Source: Cristatella mucedo
Lineage: Eukaryota > Bryozoa > Phylactolaemata > Cristatellidae
DNA length: 64,000 nt
Assembly: GCA_009760855.2 (NCBI GenBank)
Contig: WPIO01000090.1
Span: 434,001 to 498,000, forward strand
Reading direction: 5' to 3'
This document shows positions 15,317 to 52,831 of this stretch, piece by piece (positions within the stretch are counted from its first letter, which is position 1; each line of letters opens with the position of its first letter). The position numbers and the translations under genes are program-made. The notes below the pieces were generated by a model. The model made no database searches and was not told where the DNA came from. It saw only the letters and a list, made by a program, of their open reading frames with translations.

Positions 15317-15414
15317 ATGGCAGAAATGGCTACCGGTCTTGAAAATGTCAGAAATTTAGAATTATGGTATACATTGTTTGACCCAATAGGAGGTGGATCC
15401 CATGGCACTGTATG
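15317..15414 (+). CDS. Kinase exon 1 (start codon, glycine loop)
   Basis: Encodes residues 1-32 plus two bases of Trp33. ATG at 15317; a second in-frame ATG is codon 4. It holds ELWYTLFDPIGGGSHGTV, the nucleotide-binding glycine loop. Donor TG|GTGAGT at 15415, phase 2. The exon is repeated at 57104. Confidence 0.9.

Positions 15415-52831: not shown

Follow-up and report, generated by a model that had tools for sequence, protein, structure and literature searches.

The window analysed here comprises 64,000 nucleotides (nt) of the genome of the bryozoan Cristatella mucedo (GCA_009760855.2, contig WPIO01000090.1; C677:434001-498000 in an assembly of 572 Mb and 688 contigs) and contains a kinase gene, hereafter copy B, whose nine exons lie on the plus strand between positions 15317 and 52831, a span of 37,515 bases (Table 1). 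The window was searched with three MAP-kinase references and the frames around the matches were then read; small exons were sought by enumerating AG...GT segments with a fitting length and phase, and by exon-by-exon queries. All exons have AG/GT borders and their phases match. A first-pass annotation had described a nine-exon MAP-kinase-like gene spread over some 37 kb at this position, a description borne out by three complete copies on the contig (B, C and D), which have the same nine exon lengths and intact splice dinucleotides and are free of internal stops across 1080 nt. The predicted product of copy B has 359 residues from the ATG at 15317, or 356 from the ATG at 15326; the latter is common to B, C and D, and the upstream ATG is replaced by ATA in C and D.

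The two smallest exons had been regarded as fixed by frame arithmetic. Their lengths (56 and 79 nt) stand, being kept in the sister copies; the arithmetic by itself does not suffice for exon 3. Within the limits set by the neighbouring phases, 18 open 56-nt segments could serve as exon 3 and two 79-nt segments as exon 7, and in each case one (34312-34367 and 39906-39984, respectively) combines a strong splice context with an ERK-like continuation. With 18 open candidates, it is the sister copies that settle the choice of exon 3. An alternative acceptor for exon 8 at 41098 was rejected, since the acceptor at 41092 restores the ERK2-like VLEMLGGLL and agrees with copies A and E.

The length of 385 residues given by the first-pass annotation is not supported. 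That length would be reproduced exactly by an exon 6 running from 37383 to 37558 (176 nt) together with exon 8 at 41092-41204; the 3′ end of exon 6 is most likely 37480, so that the longer product depends on an overextension of 78 nt. The extension has some merit in copy B itself, where its frame is open and a good GTAAGC donor follows in the right phase. Its equivalents in the sister copies speak against it: there is an in-frame stop after 36 nt in C and after 66 nt in H, and in D the segment is open but shows two length differences relative to B, of 1 nt and 42 nt, which put the GTAAGC donor of D out of phase. Moreover, in A, B, C, D and H a GTAA donor closes exon 6 at 98 nt (86 nt in E), and with the 98-nt length the alignment to ERK2 requires no insert following the splice. 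We therefore consider it most improbable that the 385-residue version is correct for copy B. A 182-nt exon 6 was also sought and was not found.

Judged by its sequence, copy B is nearest to ERK1/2, yet it is not a standard MAP kinase. The profile search proposed for the joined product gave a clear match to Pfam PF00069 (Pkinase; 165.9 bits against a cut-off of 31.7, E=1.5e-48), and its best matches among solved structures are ERK1 and ERK2 (E ~4e-44); both searches used a 357-residue version with a shorter exon 8. The best 60 of the 1229 structure matches comprise MAPK1, MAPK3, MAPK6 and one MAPK1/14 hybrid. Exons 4–8 of copy E likewise find ERK1/2 first (best 60 of 761 matches). When copies A–E (A and E being partial) were scored against five references, namely ERK2, p38, JNK1, CDK2 and a protein encoded on contig C22 of the same genome which we take to be a CDK-like kinase, ERK2 was the top scorer for all five; the protein of copy E used in these comparisons departs from the corrected model of that copy by about two residues where exons 5 and 6 meet. 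A tree of 10 rows places the copies together with ERK2, p38 and JNK1, apart from the two CDK-type kinases.

The kinase landmarks reported earlier are all present and in order in copy B (GGGSHG, VALK, the helix-C glutamate, HRDLSSDN, DFD, TDK, FRAPE, DMWAIG), but three of them are altered: HRDLK has become HRDLS (HRDLSSDN, residues 144–151), DFG has become DFD (residues 165–167), and the TxY of the activation loop is replaced by TDK (residues 181–183). The first-pass annotation was silent on the absent TxY, HRDLK lysine and DFG glycine, and also on the tandem array described below, most of which lies beyond the window. The residues retained are the VALK lysine, the helix-C glutamate, the HRD aspartate, the catalytic-loop asparagine and the first aspartate of DFD. 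The core residues by whose loss pseudokinases are judged, namely the VAIK lysine and the HRD and DFG aspartates, are all kept in copy B; its losses are the lysine of HRDLK and the glycine of DFG. The acidic common-docking site of ERK2 is DPSDEP; the corresponding place in copy B reads KPINYE.

Copy B does not stand alone: at least eight similar copies, itself included, lie with one further fragment in one orientation along about 570 kb of a single contig. They were found by a genome-wide protein search with exons 4–5 of copy B, in which only the best candidates were scored, so that the counts given here are lower bounds. Every match of at least 58% identity lies on C677, on the same strand. 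The identities of the outlying copies Z, A and E (46–56%) are barely above those of some kinases elsewhere in the genome (up to 45%), and the assignment of these three to the array rests on where they lie, their strand, their exon arrangement and their motifs. A genome-wide search with exon 2 (E<=0.001) gave at least eight places, all on C677. The altered motifs recur across the array: DFD is present in seven of the eight copies (GFD in Z, with loss of the metal-binding aspartate), seven copies, B among them, have lost the HRDLK lysine, which E keeps, and a T-x-Y was found in none of the eight copies read.

The copies differ in their state of preservation. The introns of B, C and D vary in length by kilobases. 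Copy E has exons 5, 6 and 8 of 196, 86 and 113 nt, with fitting phases; its exon 1 is no more than a weak match (C677:907019), and for its exon 3 three open 56-nt candidates were found, none convincing. Exon 1 of copy A was not identified. Copy G is clearly a pseudogene, with stops and a frameshift that leaves its exon 5 at 192 nt where 193 nt would be expected. Between B and C, exon 5 (37027-37219 and C677:518789-518981) is 99.5% identical and exon 4 is 86.6% identical, and the colinear pieces of the two copies, which skip the exon 5 stretch, have a mean identity of 88.8%; this pattern suggests gene conversion of exon 5. The full exon 4 of C is closely preceded by three partial copies of that exon, at 517194, 517473 and 517751 (C677:517194-517891), which fall into two sequence types; they reflect local duplication and are possibly pseudo-exons. 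Outside the array, a diverged relative at C660:837334-837534 has HLDVRPQN and ISDFD in separate frames and is probably split by an intron before the DFD; the DFD family may hence be wider than the array on C677.

Table 1. Exons of copy B, adjoining segments and members of the tandem array (positions are those of the window unless prefixed by C677; array members are placed by their matches to exons 4–5, except the fragment)
Feature	Position	Length (nt)	Strand	Same length in copies	Remarks
Exon 1	15317..15414	98	+		N-terminus; glycine loop GGGSHG; homologous exon in C (C677:491095) and D (C677:570961)
Exon 2	22749..22878	130	+	C, D, E	VALK lysine; helix-C glutamate; ends in HEN
Exon 3	34312..34367	56	+	A, C, D
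Exon 4	36743..36944	202	+		HRDLSSDN catalytic loop; includes most variable segment (residues 107–126)
Exon 5	37027..37219	193	+		DFD; TDK instead of TEY; FRAPE; DMWAIG; 99.5% identity with copy C
Exon 6	37383..37480	98	+	A, C, D, H	Corrected 3′ end, GCG/GTAAGA
Extension of exon 6	37481..37558	78	+		Most likely intron despite open frame in B; required for 385 residues
Exon 7	39906..39984	79	+	A, C, D, E
Exon 8	41092..41204	113	+	A, E	LLQFNPNRR
Exon 9	52721..52831	111	+	C, D	TGA stop
Copy C, exon 1	57095..57192		+		Remaining exons past the window, up to C677:537236
Copy Z	C677:346397				46–56% identity; catalytic loop HRDLSTAT
Copy A	C677:410029				46–56% identity; catalytic loop HRDLTPNN
Copy B	C677:470744				At least 58% identity; catalytic loop HRDLSSDN
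Copy C	C677:518506				At least 58% identity; catalytic loop HRDLSPNN
Copy D	C677:591921				At least 58% identity; catalytic loop HRDLSSNN
Exon 5 fragment	C677:622898				51% identity
Copy G	C677:682428				At least 58% identity; catalytic loop HRDLSSNN
Copy H	C677:741837				At least 58% identity; catalytic loop HRDLSSNN
Copy E	C677:916066				46–56% identity; catalytic loop HRDLKPGN

One explanation of such an array is that of a decaying tandem family, in which B, C and D would be unused recent duplicates whose frames are intact merely because they are young. The frameshift and stops of G, the GFD of Z and the partial exon-4 copies beside C speak for this explanation, and the ratio of non-synonymous to synonymous substitution (dN/dS), at 0.52–0.64, is not strongly below 1. 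The pattern of insertions and deletions argues otherwise. No gap separates B from D in 1080 exon bases, where 9.4 would be expected from the intron rates (P=8e-5), which indicates that the reading frame has been under selection; between B and C there are none in the 696 coding bases compared, against 3.9 expected (P=0.02). When copy B was mutated in silico by 6–7% without selection, about three stops arose on average and none in 3–5% of the runs. For B and D, dN/dS is 0.52 (bootstrap 0.34–0.78), and the splice dinucleotides of all three complete copies are preserved. Taking these observations together, we regard unselected decay as an improbable account of copy B.

The amino-acid differences among B, C and D are unevenly placed. 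In an exploratory test on these three copies, they peak at residues 107–126 (13 of 20 sites, the densest 20-residue window; permutation p=0.013), and residues 106–125 show no synonymous-only differences. This segment is the loop that precedes helix E; in ERK2 the loop presumably adjoins the substrate-docking groove. Across the activation segment (residues 180–195), only one of 16 sites varies, although this low variation may come in part from the suggested gene conversion of exon 5.

On this sequence evidence, copy B is probably a working member of a tandemly arranged, fast-evolving set of kinase genes derived from ERK, and its product would be independent of MEK and weakly active or inactive. 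The product is predicted to fold like ERK and to bind nucleotide, as the five core residues named above are kept. With TxY gone, dual phosphorylation of the MEK type could not switch it on. Catalysis is likely to be weak or absent, given the serine in place of the HRDLK lysine and the aspartate in place of the DFG glycine; for the latter, MNK1/2 provide a precedent, since in these kinases DFD replaces DFG, and in their crystal structures the motif is turned into the ATP pocket, a feature tied to an autoinhibited DFD-out state (PMC3326643). Its role would then be exerted mainly through binding partners, and it is in the loop preceding helix E that the copies are most unlike one another.

The same residues can be read differently, with copy B as an active kinase regulated by other means than MEK, in which DFD and HRDLS are tolerated as DFD is in MNK1/2. 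We regard this as possible, if on the unlikely side. Retention of the five core catalytic residues and the nearly constant activation segment (with the reservation concerning gene conversion) are consistent with it, as are the HRDLK of copy E and the fact that kinases with DFD are known, namely MNK1/2 (PMC3326643). Set against these is the loss of the HRDLK lysine in seven of the eight copies, and of T-x-Y in all of them. A further idea, which we consider doubtful, is that this would be a lineage-specific array of MEK-uncoupled, DFD-type ERK paralogues acting as decoys or competitors with the shape of ERK: they would tune MAPK signalling, or defend it, through their choice of docking partner and not by catalysis, the docking-side segment being kept diverse and the altered active site constant.

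Several observations weigh against our preferred reading of copy B as a retained, ERK-derived gene. The tree gives the family a long stem (2.21) and no firm branching order among the MAPKs, so that its exact origin is uncertain. Outside the array, the genome's best match to both B and E is the C22 protein, at 37–39%, and no standard ERK1/2 of the genome was located with which to compare them. Part of the array is in decay, as G and Z indicate. For B–C and C–D, dN/dS is 0.64 and 0.63, with bootstrap upper limits (1.05 and 1.03) just above 1, and the hypervariable-window test is exploratory.

The introns of copy B are rich in repeats, as had been noted before. Stretches resembling reverse transcriptase make up 7,474 bases of the gene span, and 35–38% of the intron bases match at least three other places when 230 kb are compared (35% from 829 hits). 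A stretch of this kind in intron 8 (42583-42906) shares 96% protein identity with an open reverse-transcriptase frame on the minus strand of the window (2043-3431), and the other fragments in the gene span are at 30–80%, which suggests one recent insertion among older ones. Intron 1 contains about 500 bases of an AG-rich tetranucleotide repeat (20593-21100). Rfam and tRNA scans of the window gave no matches. Elsewhere in the assembly, a kinase at C158:83300-88000, which we take to be ERK5-like, has an activation loop with TQY. Contig C688 is a mitochondrial contig of 21,008 bp using the invertebrate code (ATA=Met, AGR=Ser), with COX1 on the minus strand; we assign COX3, ATP6, ND3, ND1, ND6, CYTB, ND4L, ND4 and ND5 to the same strand, and ND2 and COX2 to the plus strand.

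ERK usually occurs in very few, highly conserved copies. The scallop Chlamys farreri is reported to have one ERK, one JNK and one p38 (PMC8356821), and a paper on the oyster kinome mentions ERK, p38, JNK and ERK5, the word 'tandem' being absent from its accessible text (PMC4883820). Literature searches on DFD kinases, lophotrochozoan atypical or tandem MAPKs, mollusc ERK pseudokinases and bivalve MAPK expansion revealed no such array in the titles or abstract openings of the matches listed, though it may already have been described; nor did one appear among the matches listed for lineage-specific CMGC expansion and tandem MAPK pseudokinases, and a search on loss of the catalytic-loop lysine gave none. 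An array of ERK-derived genes that lack the MEK phosphorylation site and bear the DFD known from MNKs would offer a natural experiment in the uncoupling of a MAP kinase from its cascade and in what an uncoupled kinase is retained for.

Comparison with known kinases places these features in context. Copy B is about 35% identical to ERK1/ERK2 over 300 residues; its exons 7–8 align with ERK2 without gaps, starting at the splice between exons 6 and 7 and continuing through LLQFNP, and it retains the arginine of FRAPE. It differs from ERK1/2 in having TDK, not TxY, HRDLSSDN, not HRDLKPSN, and DFD, not DFG, and in being without the acidic common-docking patch. Absence of the dual phosphorylation motif from the activation loop is shared with the atypical MAPKs ERK3/4 and NLK; MAPK6 (ERK3) matches copy B at 139 bits, below ERK1/2, among the best 60 of the 1229 matches. 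MNK1 and MNK2 resemble copy B in having DFD for DFG, but their kinase domains are of the CaMK type (PMC3326643) and copy B is ERK-like in sequence, so that the shared motif is most simply explained by convergence. Plant MAPKs with variant activation loops offer a parallel in their lineage-specific variation at the TxY site, but the consensus listed for them retains both HRDLKPxN and DFG (PMC4363184).
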